DNA of 32,244 bases from an uncultured Mycoplasma sp. Its GTDB lineage: Bacteria > Bacillota_I > Bacilli_A > RF39 > UBA660. A model generated the notes under the pieces. It was not told the DNA's origin, ran no database searches, and worked only from the letters and a program-made list of their open reading frames with translations. Every line of letters begins with the position of its first letter. Position 1 is the first letter of the stretch. The stretch lies in NCBI GenBank assembly GCA_946554525.1, contig CAMNSE010000002.1:78001-110244 (forward strand). The letters are read 5' to 3'. This document shows positions 1 through 7,271 of the stretch, piece by piece. The translations under genes and the position numbers were made by a program.

Positions 1-112
1 TAAGTAAATTTCTTTTATAATTATTAATCATTAAAACTGACAACATCATTGTAATAAAAACTAGAAAAAACGAATAGACCATATAAATAGACGCAAAACC
101 TTTTTTATTCAT
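1..112 (-). CDS. Pilin-like / pseudopilin-like membrane protein, N-terminal fragment
   Basis: The first 37 residues of a protein that runs off the left edge. The sequence starts MNKKGFASIYMV and continues as one long hydrophobic segment (about residues 6-29) followed by basic residues. A short basic leader ending in Gly just before Phe and a hydrophobic helix is what type IV pilin-like proteins (for example minor ComG pseudopilins) look like at a prepilin-peptidase site. The usual Glu at position +5 of the mature protein is absent, so the assignment is tentative, and a plain single-pass membrane protein fits too. The start at 112 is preferred over an in-frame ATG at 124 because GGTGAT lies just upstream of it. 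The gene begins only 26 bases beyond the terminator of the peptide operon, and no promoter fits between them. Confidence 0.5.
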   Translation of the reverse strand, partial: MNKKGFASIYMVYSFFLVFITMMLSVLMINNYKRNLL

Positions 113-137: not shown

Positions 138-169
138 AAAAAAGAGGGCTTTAGAAAACCCTCTTTTTT
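138..169 (-). terminator. Terminator of the peptide/exporter operon
   Basis: A perfect 11-bp inverted repeat (138-148 with 159-169, core AAGAGGG/CCCTCTT) encloses a 10-base loop and gives a U run on the minus transcript. The A/T flanks make it symmetrical, so it could act on both strands. The stop codon of the last precursor gene (168-170) lies inside the stem. Confidence 0.85.
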
Positions 170-329
170 ATATTTGACAATATTGCCCACTTAGAGCTCT
201 ACGTAAGGATGAACCAATCATTCTTCCAATATCTACTAAAGATCCAATCAATCTTACTACAGCATTAATAACTGAAGCATTCCAAGCTCCGCCTGTAATT
301 TCTACAAGCTTATAATTATCTAGTTTCAT
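168..329 (-). CDS. Double-glycine precursor peptide 3 (bacteriocin-like)
   Basis: A 53-residue ORF. The leader MKLDNYKLVEITGG (14 residues) carries Leu at -12, Leu at -7, Ile at -4 and Gly-Gly at -2/-1, the recognition pattern of C39 peptidases. The predicted mature peptide has 39 residues, starts AWNAS, and holds Arg at 12, 22, 29 and 30 against one Asp, giving a net positive charge. It has a GxxxG motif (GRMIG, mature 21-25), typical of helix-helix contacts in two-peptide class IIb bacteriocins, and a single Cys at mature 37. A strong ribosome site (GGGAGGG) lies over the end of the previous gene, 2 bases away. Third and last gene of the set. The exporter in the same operon supplies the matching peptidase. 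The killing or signalling role is inferred. Confidence 0.88.
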   Translation of the reverse strand: MKLDNYKLVEITGGAWNASVINAVVRLIGSLVDIGRMIGSSLRRALSGQYCQI

Positions 330-331
330 AA

Positions 332-475
332 TTAATCCCTCCCACACTTATATGGGTGAAAAAAGCCATACACCGCTGAAACAAATATTACTGCGCCAAT
401 CATAATAGCACCTAGAAGACTTGAGGCAATTCCACCATTTATTTTTTGTAATTCTTGATTTTTCAAATTTCTCAT
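332..475 (-). CDS. Double-glycine precursor peptide 2 (bacteriocin-like)
   Basis: A 47-residue ORF. The leader MRNLKNQELQKINGG fits the double-glycine consensus at every key position (Leu -12, Glu -8, Leu -7, Ile -4, Gly -2, Gly -1). The 32-residue predicted core starts IASSLLGAIM. It is a strongly hydrophobic helix rich in small residues, with SxxxG, AxxxG and SxxxG spacings (mature 3-7, 8-12, 18-22), followed by a polar tail with Lys, one Cys (mature 29) and Arg. Its ATG overlaps the stop of the gene before it by one base (TAATG) and has only a weak ribosome site, which suggests translational coupling. It resembles one partner of a two-component class II bacteriocin. No modification enzyme is encoded nearby, so an unmodified product is the simplest reading. 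Confidence 0.9.
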   Translation of the reverse strand: MRNLKNQELQKINGGIASSLLGAIMIGAVIFVSAVYGFFHPYKCGRD

Positions 476-609
476 TATCTTCTCACACTACCAATCATTA
501 CTTTAAATAAATATGACATAACATTAATAACGCAATTAGCTAACACACGCATAGCAAAGCTAATACCTCCTAAGCAATTTGTCAATTCTAACTGATTTAA
601 TTTTTCCAT
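475..609 (-). CDS. Double-glycine precursor peptide 1 (bacteriocin-like)
   Basis: A 44-residue ORF. The leader MEKLNQLELTNCLGG has Leu -12, Glu -8, Leu -7 and Gly-Gly, but carries Cys at -4 where a hydrophobic residue is usual. The 29-residue predicted core starts ISFAMRVLAN, ends in Arg-Arg, contains Arg and Lys but no acidic residue (about +4), and has a single Cys (mature 11). It could form an amphipathic membrane-active helix. A ribosome site (AAAGGAAGAG) precedes the ATG by a normal distance. It lies 14 bases after the accessory gene and overlaps the next precursor by one base, so all three precursors are probably made from one message. Confidence 0.88.
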   Translation of the reverse strand: MEKLNQLELTNCLGGISFAMRVLANCVINVMSYLFKVMIGSVRR

Positions 610-623
610 TCTTCTCTTCCTTT

Positions 624-1031
624 CTAAAATACTAAATTTTTTATTTTTTGAATAAATCTTTGTTTATTATAATAAAAAGTAACCGAAATTATTTGTCCAT
701 CACGATAAGTATCATCTATATAAAATATAAGCTCATGGTAACTAACATATTGTTCTTTATTTATTTTAATCGTAGATGAATCTAACTCTAAATTCACCTT
801 TTTATTACTGATATATATTTCGTCGTAATCAATATCCGTCGGCAAAATAGTCGTAAGTGTGCAACGATTATTACAGGAAATATACCCTTTTGATTGATAG
901 CTATCATAGACTTTAACATTAATAAACAAAATAACTATACTTAAAAATATTAAAAATAAGAATATTAATAAAATTGGTTTCTTTGGTTTTAGCATTAAAA
1001 ATGATTGTTTATTTTCTTGCAAATTCATCAT
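624..1031 (-). CDS. Short membrane-anchored exporter accessory (or immunity) protein
   Basis: 135 residues: a basic cytoplasmic start, one membrane helix (about 19-39), then about 95 residues predicted outside the membrane and rich in beta strand. The stretch just after the helix (SKGYIS) resembles the first strand after the anchor in HlyD-type bacteriocin accessory proteins, and the end (DGQIISVTFYY) resembles their last beta-barrel strands. The coiled-coil hairpin and lipoyl domains of a full accessory protein (over 400 residues) are missing. A CNNRC pair lies at 53-57. The start overlaps the exporter stop by 4 bases (ATGA), so the two are coupled. It sits where accessory or immunity genes usually lie. 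Neither role is proved, and no other immunity gene is visible. Confidence 0.65.
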   Translation of the reverse strand: MMNLQENKQSFLMLKPKKPILLIFLFLIFLSIVILFINVKVYDSYQSKGYISCNNRCTLTTILPTDIDYDEIYISNKKVNLELDSSTIKINKEQYVSYHELIFYIDDTYRDGQIISVTFYYNKQRFIQKIKNLVF

Positions 1032-3076
1032 GATGTTAAATCAATCACTTTCTCAAATTTATCTAAAACATCTTTATGAGTTACATAAATTATAGTTTTA
1101 TTTTTATAATATTGAAATAAATTATCTAGTATACTTTTTTCAATTTCTATATTCACTTCGCTTAATGCTTCATCTAATATAAGTATTTTAGCTTCTTTTA
1201 ATAATGCTCTTGCTAGAATAATTCGCTGCTTTTCACCACCACTTAAATTATTTAAAGAAGCATTAATCAGAGTATGATATCTATTTGGCCTTTTATTTAC
1301 GATTTCTTCTAATTTACATATTTTACAAACAATTTTAAATTTTTCATCAGGAATATTTCGAAAACATATAATATTTTCATAAATGCTACCAGTAAACAGT
1401 TTCTCATTTTGTCCAACATATAAAATATTGTTTCGAATTGAATTTAGTTTAAAATCTTTTTCGCTTGTCTCATGAAACACTATATTACCAGTGTAATTAT
1501 TAATATTACGATACAATATTTTACATAATGTAGATTTACCACAGCCACTAGGACCAAACAATAATACTTTTTCTCCAGCATTTATTTGAAAATTAACATT
1601 TTCTAAAATAAATGTGTAATGATTATAACTATAGCTTAAATTAGTAACTTTTATACTACCATCCCCTATATCATCTAATCCGATATCATCCTCCTCTTTT
1701 GATATCGATAAAAAATCACTTAATTTATAAAATGATGCTTTTAAATAATGATATTTTGGAACCAAGTTGATTAAATCTCTAATTGGATTAAAAAGATAAA
1801 TAATTAAACTTTGAAAAGTTACCAAACTAAGCACCTCTAAGTTTCCTTCATAAATTAAAACCATTCCATATGTTAATACTATAAAAAGACCAATTTCATA
1901 AATAAAATTCTTACTTGTCTCAACATTATTCATAAACTGATTAAGTTGAAAACTATTACGAAGCATTTTTATTAATTTACTTTCTAAAAAATATAAAAAT
2001 TTAGAAACTAAATTTAAGTTTTTAATACTATAATTCATATCAACATGTTCTACTAAAACTGTATTAAATTCTGTTGAATATTCAATACCTCTTTTAATTT
2101 TTTGATATAATATTTTGCTAAATATAAGCCCCATTATAAGATAAAGTAACACTATAAAACAAAGACATAAAAATAGCTTACTGCTAATTATAAATAAGAC
2201 CACTATCGCTCCTATTATCAAAATCGAATTCAAAATAAAATTCACAAATATCTCAGTTGCTAAATTTTTTATTTCGTTTAACTCTTCTACTCTTGAAACA
2301 ATTTCACCTGTAGTTCGATTTTGAATAAAATTTAAAGGGAGATGAAAGATATGTTCTAAAAATTCTGTAAATAATGTAACATCAATATTTTTATTTAGAA
2401 AATTAAGAGTATAATTTTTCAAATGTTCAAAAGAAATTTTAAGAATGTAGATAATTAAAAATATAATAACTATAAATTTAATAATTGAAATGTCTTTCCC
2501 CTTTTGAATACTTGATACACCAGCCTGAAAATAAAAACTAGAAACAATCGTAACAATCATAAGAAGTATATTAATAAAGCAAATACGAATAAAAAGTTTT
2601 CTGTTTTTTATAAATAAATTCCAGTATAAAGAAGATATTTTTGTATTTTTTGAATAATGAATAATTGTATTAATAGGTGATAATAATATAATAATATTAT
2701 CCCATATATCTAAAAATTCTTGCTTATTCATTTTTACTTTTCCACGTGCAGGGTCCATTAAACAAACATATTTATCAGCTATTTTATAAAGAACTGCAAA
2801 ATGTTGTAAGCCATTTTTTAAATTTAAATGTACTATTGCGGGCAAATAAATATCTTTATCATCAATTGATTGTGCTTTTACTCCCATGGCATCAAAGCCG
2901 TATGATTTAGCTGCTTCAATTAAATGATAAGCACTAGTTCCATTCATATTAGTAATTGTATCTTCCCTTATTTTTTCTAGTGGAACATAACCTTTATAAT
3001 ATTTCAAAATACATAAAAGAGAACATGCTCCACAGTCTTTTAGATCTTGTTGTTTTACTACTTCAATTTTAGGCAT
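1028..3076 (-). CDS. Bacteriocin-type ABC exporter with N-terminal C39 peptidase
   Basis: 682 residues in three parts. The C39 cysteine peptidase (about 1-135) shows QQDLKDCGAC with catalytic Cys15, His92 (LQHFAVLY) and Asp108 (DPARG); it removes double-glycine leaders during export. The transmembrane domain spans about 160-440. The nucleotide-binding domain is complete: Walker A GPSGCGKS (508-515), Q-loop Gln556, signature LSGGE (611-615), Walker B ILILDE (631-636) and H-loop His667. The length is that of the LagD/PedD/ComA/BlpA exporters (about 690-720). The ribosome site GGGAGG lies 8 bases before the ATG. It is the first gene of the operon and is followed by the accessory gene and three precursors that carry matching leaders. 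All catalytic residues are intact, so the exporter looks functional. Confidence 0.96.
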   Translation of the reverse strand: MPKIEVVKQQDLKDCGACSLLCILKYYKGYVPLEKIREDTITNMNGTSAYHLIEAAKSYGFDAMGVKAQSIDDKDIYLPAIVHLNLKNGLQHFAVLYKIADKYVCLMDPARGKVKMNKQEFLDIWDNIIILLSPINTIIHYSKNTKISSLYWNLFIKNRKLFIRICFINILLMIVTIVSSFYFQAGVSSIQKGKDISIIKFIVIIFLIIYILKISFEHLKNYTLNFLNKNIDVTLFTEFLEHIFHLPLNFIQNRTTGEIVSRVEELNEIKNLATEIFVNFILNSILIIGAIVVLFIISSKLFLCLCFIVLLYLIMGLIFSKILYQKIKRGIEYSTEFNTVLVEHVDMNYSIKNLNLVSKFLYFLESKLIKMLRNSFQLNQFMNNVETSKNFIYEIGLFIVLTYGMVLIYEGNLEVLSLVTFQSLIIYLFNPIRDLINLVPKYHYLKASFYKLSDFLSISKEEDDIGLDDIGDGSIKVTNLSYSYNHYTFILENVNFQINAGEKVLLFGPSGCGKSTLCKILYRNINNYTGNIVFHETSEKDFKLNSIRNNILYVGQNEKLFTGSIYENIICFRNIPDEKFKIVCKICKLEEIVNKRPNRYHTLINASLNNLSGGEKQRIILARALLKEAKILILDEALSEVNIEIEKSILDNLFQYYKNKTIIYVTHKDVLDKFEKVIDLTS

Positions 3077-3233
3077 AAATTTTTCCTCCCTTCACTACTA
3101 TTTATTACCAGAGAAGTGCCAATTTCCTTTTTTATTTTTAATTTTGGGCAGAAATTCGCAAATCGCATACACGATTCGACATTTTTTTAATTTTTTTTGT
3201 GTATACTATCCACTCAAGAAAAGGAGGAATTAT
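3077..3233. promoter_or_regulatory. Divergent promoter/operator region of the peptide locus
   Basis: 157 bases between the exporter (minus) and the regulator (plus). For the regulator, TATACT (3202-3207) is a good -10, preceded by TGTG; the -35 is poor (TCGACA, 3176-3181, spacer 20). Upstream lie repeated elements: ATTCG at 3154 and 3174 (20 bases apart, two helical turns), and an inverted pair AATCG (3161-3165) / CGATT (3172-3176). These are good candidates for the operator of the neighbouring two-HTH regulator. No convincing promoter for the exporter was seen; it could depend on activation. Confidence 0.6.
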
Positions 3234-3695
3234 ATGCAAAACGGATATATCATTGCTGAGGCTCGTGTCAAAAGAGGCATTACCCAAGAAGATATGGCTC
3301 ACCTTTTAGATATTAGTCTAAATACTTACAAAGGATATGAAGAGAATAAACAGCCTATTAAAATAGAGCAACTAAATGTTATTAGTAATCTTTTTGATAT
3401 GTCACTAGATTACTTATTAAACATTTCAAATTGTAAAACGATTTTAAAAAAAGAAAAAATAGCTGATGAAATAGATTATCGCTATTTAAAATTCAGTTTG
3501 AAATATCATCGTCGCATTAGAAGAATTAGGCAAAGAGAACTGGCGCAAGAGTTCAAAATGTCACCTACAACTATTTCTGCATACGAAAGATACGCAAATA
3601 ACGTTACGATTACATACTTAGTAAATTTTGCTAAAAAATTTCATATATCTATTGATTATATGTGTGGTAAAACCAGAAAAAAAGAGATACTCTAA
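3234..3695 (+). CDS. XRE-family regulator with two HTH domains
   Basis: 153 residues from the ATG at 3234, chosen because AAGGAGG lies 6 bases upstream; an in-frame ATG at 3144 would place the promoter inside the gene. Two Cro/C1-type helix-turn-helix domains follow each other. The first (about 4-60) has ITQEDMAHLLDISLNTYKGYE, read as ITQEDMAHLL then ISLNTYKGYE. The second (about 80-145) has QRELAQEF and MSPTTISAYE. Both end in a similar pattern (DMSLDYLLN, HISIDYMCG), as if from an internal duplication. There is no extra sensing domain. It is transcribed away from the peptide operon and is its likely repressor or activator, judged by position. The 3' end overlaps the convergent transporter gene by 4 bases. 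Confidence 0.88.
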   Translation: MQNGYIIAEARVKRGITQEDMAHLLDISLNTYKGYEENKQPIKIEQLNVISNLFDMSLDYLLNISNCKTILKKEKIADEIDYRYLKFSLKYHRRIRRIRQRELAQEFKMSPTTISAYERYANNVTITYLVNFAKKFHISIDYMCGKTRKKEIL

Positions 3696-5395: not shown

Positions 5396-6184
5396 TTAAT
5401 TTAATATTATAACATCATTATAATCGACTTTACTTGATTTTACAATATAACTTATTACGAAATATCCGCTTTTATTAACATATAACGCATAATTATGAGA
5501 ATCATTTAAATTTTCAAGAGTTTCATCAACTAATATTGTATCATCTTCTTTAATCATTTTATTCAAGCCCTCTTCTACTTTATCTTTAATCTTAGATAAA
5601 GTAAAATCAAATTGCTTCATTAGTTCATCATTTGTTAATATGCTTCCGCTTTCTAAATCAATAACATAAGACGAACTATTTTCTAGCTTGCTACCAATAA
5701 AACAATCAAATAAATACTTATCAACTACTAAAGAAGCATATTTTTTACTAAAATATCTCGTATATTTAACATATTGAGCTTCATAGATGTCATCTTCTTG
5801 ATAAACAATTCTCTCTATTTCTGAAGCTGATAAATTTTGCTCACTAATTTTCTTAACTGTTTGTCTATAAGATGAGTTTTGTTCATTTAATGTTCTTTCT
5901 AATTTTAATACTTCTTCTACATCTATATTCATTTTTACATCTTGATATATAATTTTTTGCTTTTCACTTAAAATATCAATATTCTCAAAATAAATATACT
6001 CTTTATCTTTATCTAACTTTAAGCTTTCCTCTGGTTTATTTACCTCGCTTTGCGATTTATCTGGTTCTTTAGCTTCATCATGTTTTGTTAAACTTTTTGT
6101 TAAAATATAGCCTCCTATAATTAAAGCAAAAAGAAATATTAAAAAAACAATACCATAAATTTTTCCTTTTTTATTTTCACTCAT
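5396..6184 (-). CDS. Membrane-anchored extracytoplasmic protein, RsiV/DUF3298-like C-terminus (tentative)
   Basis: 262 residues: a short basic start, one helix (about 8-28), a charged Lys/Glu/Ser-rich linker, and a globular part outside the cell. The segment YFSKKYASLVVDKYLFD, followed by YVIDLESGSILTNDEL and a final strand pair, resembles DUF4163/DUF3298 (lysozyme-binding RsiV, PdaC). The match is by eye and modest. The start at 6184 is preferred over a GTG at 6193 because AGGAGTGAT lies at the right distance. It overlaps the upstream thioredoxin-like gene by 8 bases and is followed by frr. The role is unknown; surface sensing or cell-wall binding is a guess. Confidence 0.65.
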   Translation of the reverse strand: MSENKKGKIYGIVFLIFLFALIIGGYILTKSLTKHDEAKEPDKSQSEVNKPEESLKLDKDKEYIYFENIDILSEKQKIIYQDVKMNIDVEEVLKLERTLNEQNSSYRQTVKKISEQNLSASEIERIVYQEDDIYEAQYVKYTRYFSKKYASLVVDKYLFDCFIGSKLENSSSYVIDLESGSILTNDELMKQFDFTLSKIKDKVEEGLNKMIKEDDTILVDETLENLNDSHNYALYVNKSGYFVISYIVKSSKVDYNDVIILN

Positions 6185-6677
6185 TACTATCACTCCTAAT
6201 TATTTGCGTATATTCCAAAAATGATTTCAAATTTCTATAACTACCATCACCAGGGTATCCCATTACATATTTATGATTTTTAAATACCATTAAAATAGGC
6301 TCAAAGTAAGCATCATTTCCTAATTCATATTTATTTATAAAATTTGTATAGTCAAAATTTGATTTTATATCTTCATTTATTTCTAAATAATACACTTCTA
6401 AATTATAATCAGTTTTTAACTCTTTTAAATAAGTCGTTACTTTAGCAGTACTATTGCTACTTTCATTGCCAATTAATAAAATAACATCTTCATTATTATC
6501 TATAATATTTTCTAAATTGCGAGCTTCAACTATGTTCATATAACTATTGTCAAATATATATTTAATTTCTTCATTATTATGACTGTCATCTCTATCTTTT
6601 TTAATCCATTCATATCCAAAATAAAGTATTAAACCTAACCCTAACGTAATAAGAAAGGAACTAAGAAGCCGCTTCAT
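6177..6677 (-). CDS. Membrane-anchored thioredoxin-fold-like protein without cysteines (copy 2)
   Basis: 166 residues. One N-terminal helix (about 5-22) is followed by a domain with a thioredoxin-like order: strand VILLIG, a helix, strand LEVYYLEIN, a helix, then FEPILMVFKNHK with the proline expected before strand 4, and a last helix. The CxxC site falls in NESSNSTAK, and the whole protein has no Cys, so it cannot act as a dithiol oxidoreductase. It overlaps the upstream paralogue-like gene by 17 bases and has no clear ribosome site, which suggests coupled translation. The function is unknown; a structural or binding role outside the membrane is inferred. Confidence 0.75.
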   Translation of the reverse strand: MKRLLSSFLITLGLGLILYFGYEWIKKDRDDSHNNEEIKYIFDNSYMNIVEARNLENIIDNNEDVILLIGNESSNSTAKVTTYLKELKTDYNLEVYYLEINEDIKSNFDYTNFINKYELGNDAYFEPILMVFKNHKYVMGYPGDGSYRNLKSFLEYTQIIRSDSNE

Positions 6678-7254
6678 CTTTTAAATACTCTCCAAACATT
6701 GTTTTAAATATATTTTTCTTAAGACCTATTTGGTAACTATTCCAATATTCCTCAGGATTTAGAATTCCAGTTGTAATAGCTGTTTCATTATCATATGCTA
6801 TAATTGAACCGTTTTTTACTATTACCAGTGTTGGTGCATAAATATTTTGAACTCCACTGTCTAGGGTTGCTAAATAACTGCTTAATTTTAAAACAATACT
6901 TTGGTATGTTCCACTTTTGTTTTTTCTATCTTCATAAAAATCATAATATAAAATTTTTGTAATGCCTTCTTCTTTTGCTGTTTCATTTAAAATATTAGCA
7001 TAATATCCACTCCATTTATTTGTAGGATAGCCCATAAATATAATTGCACTTCCACTTTTAAGAGCAGTTAGTACTTCTTGCCCAGTTGTATAAGCAAAAA
7101 CATTATCACTGCTTACATTGGTATAATCATGATCAAATTTTTCATTATCAACTTCTATTTTATCACTAAAATCCCTAGTTCCAATAAAAATAAAACCCAG
7201 AATTATTATAATGAATAAAGACCATTCAATAAACTTCTTTGTATTCTTTTTCAT
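6661..7254 (-). CDS. Membrane-anchored thioredoxin-fold-like protein without cysteines (copy 1)
   Basis: About 197 residues from the ATG at 7254 (ATG at 7260 and GTG at 7263 are in frame and possible). One N-terminal helix is followed by a domain resembling bacteriocin-transport-accessory/thioredoxin proteins: strand AIIFMGY, then PTNKWSGYY where a CxxC would stand (both cysteines replaced), a helix, strand KILYYDFY, and APTLVIVKNG with the cis-proline position kept. No Cys occurs anywhere. It is the first gene of the unit leading to frr. A TGATATAAT extended -10 lies just upstream, which would give a very short 5' leader. Function unknown. Confidence 0.75.
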   Translation of the reverse strand: MKKNTKKFIEWSLFIIIILGFIFIGTRDFSDKIEVDNEKFDHDYTNVSSDNVFAYTTGQEVLTALKSGSAIIFMGYPTNKWSGYYANILNETAKEEGITKILYYDFYEDRKNKSGTYQSIVLKLSSYLATLDSGVQNIYAPTLVIVKNGSIIAYDNETAITTGILNPEEYWNSYQIGLKKNIFKTMFGEYLKDEAAS

Positions 7255-7271
7255 ACTCATCACTCATAATT

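Follow-up and report, generated by a model that had tools for sequence, protein, structure and literature searches.

A conserved exported peptide pair with class IIb-like features in one order of genome-reduced gut Bacilli

Bacteriocins are usually sporadic in their occurrence and diversifying in sequence, and those that are unmodified and carry a double-glycine (GG) leader have been treated as accessory, patchy traits. Class IIb, represented by lactococcin G, plantaricin EF/JK and the lactobin A/cerein 7B family (TIGR03949), consists of adjacent pairs of GG-leader peptides, one a hydrophobic and one a cationic amphipathic helix with GxxxG motifs, served by a C39-peptidase ATP-binding cassette (ABC) exporter and an accessory membrane protein. 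An operon of similar make-up is described here from a stretch of DNA of 32,244 nucleotides, referred to as the window (G000:C2:78001-110244; positions 78,001 to 110,244 of contig CAMNSE010000002.1), in the draft genome (1.13 Mb, 94% complete) of an uncultured Mycoplasma sp. of the order RF39, family UBA660. It is transcribed from the minus strand in the order 682-amino-acid (aa) exporter, 135-aa membrane protein, peptide A (44 aa), peptide B (47 aa), peptide C (53 aa) and terminator.

Several described systems resemble parts of this locus. Gallocin A of Streptococcus gallolyticus (GllA1/GllA2/GIP) also consists of two peptides with GG leaders and is reportedly the first class IIb bacteriocin with disulfides, which are intramolecular; its immunity peptide, GIP, has been modelled as a mimic of the gallocin peptides (PMC10100652). 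The disulfide dependence of gallocin A may be compared with the bond predicted below between B and C, and the likeness of GIP to the toxin peptides with a C-like one-helix open reading frame (ORF) of other genera. However, each gallocin peptide has two cysteines, bonded within that peptide, a pattern that B and C do not share, and no sequence relation between gallocin A and B or C was found. CbnZ, the immunity protein of carnobacteriocin XY, has 42 aa and one membrane segment (PMC8538875) and so recalls the C-like ORFs in being a very small one-helix protein that serves a two-peptide system; the ORFs differ in sharing GxxxGTxxR with peptide C, and CbnZ is compared by description, not by sequence. 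The exporter has the architecture of the peptidase-containing ABC transporter (PCAT) PCAT1, whose substrate CtA is the only solved, and weakly matched, relative of the leader region, but PCAT1 has a single substrate with a different core, whereas here a 135-aa accessory protein is present as well.

Compared with class IIb as a whole, the system differs in being found once per genome in ~93% of a family and under purifying selection, in the single co-varying C-terminal cysteine of each peptide, in the lack of an immunity gene in the window's genus and in the extra GG peptide, A. A literature search on RF39 with bacteriocins or C39 exporters, which did not extend to subscription papers, found no description of the exporter-B-C system. 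That B and C are a conserved exported pair is almost certain. In the reading that we slightly favour, the locus itself is the form taken in this genus by an exported two-peptide system that is a core trait of one order of gut Bacilli with reduced genomes; that system is class IIb-like and probably covalently paired and membrane-active.

Distribution and inheritance of the exporter and its peptides

A close ortholog of the exporter (53-63% identity) was found, one each, in 35 of the 36 genomes of the window's genus and in all 19 that are at least 90% complete; the sole genome without it is 80% complete. The neighbourhood is conserved in the 30 genus loci first read, as AI-2E permease, divergent gene with two helix-turn-helix (HTH) domains, exporter, 136-aa protein, A, B and C, and since the same genes recur in the same order in almost all genomes of the genus the operon is not a chance set of ORFs. 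Of the 32 genus loci, 31 retain peptide A, the exception being L019, which has B and C. Throughout the rest of the family B and C occur without A, and the three-gene order of the initial annotation is a property of the genus.

Across the family, 173 of 193 sampled genomes, spread over 135 of 148 genera, had an exporter ortholog, again one each; in a sample of 146 genomes drawn at order level, which all fell in this same family, the number was 129. Peptide C is still encoded in seven of the 20 family genomes that lie below the exporter threshold, and the system is therefore present in ~180/193 (93%); among high-quality family genomes 133 of 140 carry it. In other genera B and then C lie downstream of the exporter almost everywhere; in all, with the window's genus included, 128 B-C pairs in this arrangement were collected. 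The accessory protein was recognised in 32/32 genus loci and in 42 of 61 loci from other genera, and the two-HTH gene (32/32 genus loci) and its AI-2E neighbour are essentially confined to the genus, so the invariant core is exporter, B and C. The prospect that the peptides might prove unconserved in relatives is decisively contradicted, B and C being family-wide, while the three-partner set proposed at the outset does not hold as a unit.

A profile built on 35 C peptides matched 51 of 54 family genomes, and C in full was absent from the 341 other genomes of the class searched with it, four mycoplasma-like genomes being matched by the leader alone. A plasmid search with C gave no match. A sporadic, horizontally moved bacteriocin island was rejected on the single-copy synteny in the genus and the presence across the family. 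Two mycoplasma-like loci (L219 4039-4431, minus strand; L220 1470-1862, plus strand) encode, beside rplU, a protein of 130 aa whose leader is of the GG type (MQKLKDNELKDIKGG...) but which is otherwise unrelated to C. Likely broken copies of the system were also seen, namely L078, with a shortened B and no recognised C, and exporters that are split or have internal stops (G213:C28:3057-5078 and G301:C2:127382-129407).

Exporter distances track those of the markers rpsB and tsf over 42 genomes (Mantel r 0.83, a value reached in 0 of 2000 permutations), and the window's genus is monophyletic in both trees. Pooled over 12 close pairs, pN/pS was 0.21 for the exporter, 0.16 for the B core, 0.14 for the C core and 0.44 for the A core; B and C are under stronger constraint than their own exporter and A is looser. 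The same is seen in core identity, which in several pairs is 24-61% for A where B and C retain 68-97%. The sequence comparisons show that exporter, B and C are a single-copy set, inherited largely vertically, under purifying selection and restricted to one order.

Peptide anatomy and matched C-terminal cysteines

The three GG-leader ORFs of 53, 47 and 44 codons in the initial annotation were all recovered. Peptide C (168-329, minus strand; 53 aa from its ATG) has leader MKLDNYKLVEITGG and core AWNASVINAVVRLIGSLVDIGRMIGSSLRRALSGQYCQI; B (332-475, minus strand) has leader MRNLKNQELQKINGG and core IASSLLGAIMIGAVIFVSAVYGFFHPYKCGRD; and A (475-609, minus strand), found only in the window's genus and faster-evolving, has leader MEKLNQLELTNCLGG and core ISFAMRVLANCVINVMSYLFKVMIGSVRR. 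The genes of A and B have one base in common and 2 nt separate those of B and C. Leaders are ~14-15 aa long, with hydrophobic residues at -4, -7 and -12 and GG at -2/-1, and these columns are conserved among 35 C and 32 B sequences. The peptides were sorted by core-only hidden Markov models, because in full-length models the shared leader dominates and A, B and C were mixed. The idea of A as a paralog of C was dropped, the comparison of core profiles being too weak (probability 23%).

The cores are class IIb-like, as first proposed, although not equally cationic, with net charges in the window of +4 (A), +1 (B) and +3 (C). Over 88 cores of each, the mean charge is +3.5 for C and +1.3 for B, and a strict GxxxG is present in all 88 C cores and in 60 B cores; the window's own B has a GxxxG-like motif only (SAVYG). 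In the window, the helix of B is hydrophobic, with a mean hydrophobicity of 0.83 across 18 residues, and that of C is amphipathic (moment 0.63). The C core follows the consensus IS-x-x-L-x-NA-x-x-R...DLGRxxGSAIRRI...C and the tail of B F-x-x-G-x-IDGY-x-RP-x-KC, in which DG-x-x-RP is replaced by YG-x-x-HP in the window's genus. The core sequences had initially gone unrecognised, and no described family was found for them. The class IIb model TIGR03949 of NCBIfam did match the window's B above its curated cut-off (24.9 against 21.5 bits), with C slightly under it and A giving no match; 30 of 32 B peptides were matched at E<=0.1, mostly via the leader.

B and C normally have one cysteine each, near the C terminus (one cysteine in 71/88 B and 73/88 C cores). 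The tail cysteine is present in both partners of 115 of the 128 B-C pairs, absent from both in 13 and in no case present in one only. The rule for calling it was revised twice upon inspection by eye of miscalled tails (e.g. KCGRD, CGF, or GG within the tail), and it is the final rule that leaves no discordant pair. Joint losses have occurred in at least three separate lineages: a subclade of the window's genus, genus g66 (L174, L175 and the second pair of L060) and genus g28 (L187), of which another member, L064, keeps the cysteine in both peptides. Of the 252 branches of the exporter tree, the same 5 carry the changes in both characters; the chance of an identical set of branches is ~1e-10, or ~4e-7 if three events only are counted. 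The B peptides of g66 retain a cysteine at another position (FCGLF). The L060 locus is a natural duplication, in which two B-C pairs follow one another (offsets 407-980 downstream of the exporter) and only the first of them has tail cysteines.

This covariation makes it rather probable that B and C are joined outside the cell by a disulfide between their C-terminal cysteines; since nearly every peptide has a single cysteine, the predicted bond is one between B and C. No description of an inter-peptide disulfide of this type in class IIb was found in the literature.

Exporter, accessory genes and flanking elements

The exporter (1028-3076, minus strand) has matches to the Pfam families Peptidase_C39, ABC_membrane and ABC_tran. 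Its residues 15, 92 and 108 are Cys, His and Asp, the intact C39 catalytic set, and the ATPase motifs are likewise intact (P-loop GPSGCGKST at 508, LSGGE at 611 and Walker B ILILDEA at 631), in agreement with the initial annotation, whose complete GG-peptide export operon is likewise supported. The exporter gene overlaps by 4 nt that of the accessory membrane protein (624-1031, minus strand; 135 aa), for which a model (predicted local distance difference test score, pLDDT, 80) has a single membrane helix (19-38) and an all-beta domain (42-122). Foldseek found no significant fold match for this model. The protein was considered as an HlyD/LcnD-type adaptor and rejected, as, despite the helix and beta domain, its Foldseek matches, which include the membrane-fusion proteins CusB, AcrA and BesA, were weak only.

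The divergent regulator (3234-3695, plus strand; 153 aa) has, as first annotated, two HTH domains, of the HTH_3 (Cro/C1) type by Pfam, and no ligand domain was seen in it; it belongs to the window's genus rather than to the system as a whole. In the intergenic region (3077-3233), aligned from the 32 genus loci, TTCGACA (~3175-3181, plus strand) lies 5' of the two-HTH gene and is near-invariant, with one variant (L018), and GGTAATAAATAnTAGTGAAGGGAGG is conserved ahead of the exporter. This divergent promoter region is a possible operator. An intrinsic terminator 3' of C (138-172, minus strand; AAAAGAGGG..CCCTCTTTTTT) coincides with a strong hairpin of terminator type within 130-175 of that strand (z -5.4). 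Rfam had no match within the window.

Outside the operon, C is followed in the genus loci by a prepilin-like ORF of 64-78 aa, rpsU and yqeY. The prepilin-like ORF (KKGFASIYMVYSFF...; window 1-112, minus strand, extending past the window start into L031) lies between terminator and rpsU in nearly all genus loci, and five other genera (L040, L070, L079, L083 and L118) have a 244-293-aa version of the protein in the same area. In many genera, e.g. at L047, L059, L063 and L064, rpsU-yqeY is directly downstream of the peptides, with rpsU present in 32 of 61 non-genus loci, which suggests that this position is ancient. Elsewhere in the window (6177-7263, minus strand) are two adjoining membrane-anchored proteins that by eye are thioredoxin-like and are without a CxxC motif.

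Function of the pair and alternative explanations

By sequence-level features the B-C system would be most class IIb-like in its working: two different adjacent peptides are kept together in 128 pairs, both have GxxxG or GxxxG-like motifs, their composition and hydrophobic moment would fit putative membrane-inserting helices, and the leader consensus and adjacent intact exporter are those of GG-peptide/C39 (PCAT) systems. Killing activity would follow by analogy, and the system is to be taken as a candidate and is not filed as a proven bacteriocin. From what is established for its family, the exporter's C39 domain would cut B and C after the GG and export both; outside the cell the two would be linked through their C-terminal cysteines; and the hydrophobic helix of B and the cationic amphipathic GxxxG helix of C would, as in class IIb, insert jointly into a membrane and make it permeable, the most plausible target being the membrane of neighbouring cells. 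For this membrane-permeabilising, bacteriocin-like action we consider the chances to be even. In the window's genus the faster-evolving peptide A would have been added as a third, perhaps tuning specificity.

In 24 loci of other genera (including L102) an ORF of ~42-70 aa lies directly 3' of C, without a GG leader and with one hydrophobic segment, its second half carrying GxxxGTxxR as in C. Its position, size and mimicry recall CbnZ and GIP, and this C-like one-helix protein may be an immunity protein.

Several observations weigh against such a reading. The resemblance to class IIb is one of composition and motifs; the matches to bacteriocin families mostly span the leader, which is common to any GG peptide, and structure searches yielded only a weak leader match, to CtA (E 0.3-0.5). 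No immunity candidate was seen in the window's operon or in its genus. At deep nodes, six well-supported splits of the marker tree disagree with that of the exporter, so that some exchange or tree error is possible. Near-universal vertical retention with purifying selection is, moreover, atypical for bacteriocins and suggests another role.

The main rival takes up this last point. It holds that B and C are exported for a conserved social or structural role other than killing, in biofilm formation or aggregation, in the cell's own envelope or in contact with host or neighbours, and that the bacteriocin look is superficial. Order-wide retention in one copy per genome, purifying selection and the lack of an immunity gene in the genus would agree better with a core role than with a weapon, and both secreted GG-motif proteins that act in biofilm formation and HetC, a C39 exporter involved in cell differentiation, have been described (PMC4997328, PMC10986499). 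PMC4997328 concerns GG-leader proteins of Synechococcus elongatus, which are cyanobacterial and are likened to B and C by role, not by sequence. A non-killing role is harder to reconcile with the class IIb make-up of an adjacent pair of hydrophobic and cationic amphipathic helices with GxxxG, and with the C-like protein that in 24 other loci occupies the usual place of an immunity gene, and we regard it as unlikely, if less so than the remaining alternatives.

That the peptides are pheromones, with the divergent two-HTH protein as their local regulator, is improbable. Pheromones of the ComC/Blp type also use GG leaders and C39 exporters, ComC families are weakly matched through the leader, and the divergent HTH gene and conserved promoter-like elements are found in 32/32 genus loci. 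However, two or three membrane-active-looking peptides are encoded together, no histidine kinase or peptide-binding regulator (Rgg/Rap type) is found among the flanking genes in the window and its relatives, and the two-HTH protein, in which no ligand domain was seen, is missing in almost every other genus with B and C; conservation over ~140 genera also speaks against a species-specific code. Less probable again is a bacteriocin of three peptides, with A an obligate partner of B and C: A is in the same overlapping operon, has an intact GG leader and is retained at nearly every locus of the genus, but the family outside the genus and L019 have the pair without it, and its core is far less conserved. 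A decaying or non-functional remnant, for which only the broken copies at L078, G213 and G301 could be cited, is hardly credible for an operon that is intact in nearly all genomes, with intact catalytic residues and an exporter, B and C under strong purifying selection.

The class IIb-like pair can be set against the description of RF39 as an order that does not synthesise fatty acids and is missing several pathways for amino acids and vitamins (PMC6784871). The window's genome lacks ketoacyl synthase (PF00109, present in 14/14 controls), and this absence, a genome of ~1.1 Mb and the gut Bacilli lineage fit that description. A permeabilising pair would suit such cells because it would free metabolites from neighbours; permeabilised neighbours would perhaps release nutrients that the auxotrophic producers cannot make. 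It is only a tentative proposal that the covalent B-C complex is a new subclass of two-peptide systems and an order-core, vertical trait for a parasitic or scavenging lifestyle, in which neighbours are permeabilised for nutrients, rather than an instrument of sporadic warfare.

Two features were beyond the sight of the initial annotation: within one order the system is conserved as a single copy almost universally, and B and C have matched cysteines at their C termini. The cysteines give a sharp, testable prediction, that of a disulfide-linked heterodimer, for which the natural cysteine-less pairs are ready controls. A basic function, in organisms that have given up fatty-acid synthesis and other core pathways, is implied by a pair that occurs as a single copy in nearly all of its family, that had no full counterpart in the other genomes sampled from the class and that is under tighter constraint than its own exporter. 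Peptides of this kind are as a rule sporadic and here they are near-universal, so the exporter-B-C system looks to be part of the basic life of these bacteria, and it offers a direct molecular way into the question of how uncultured auxotrophs of the gut get metabolites or deal with their neighbours.

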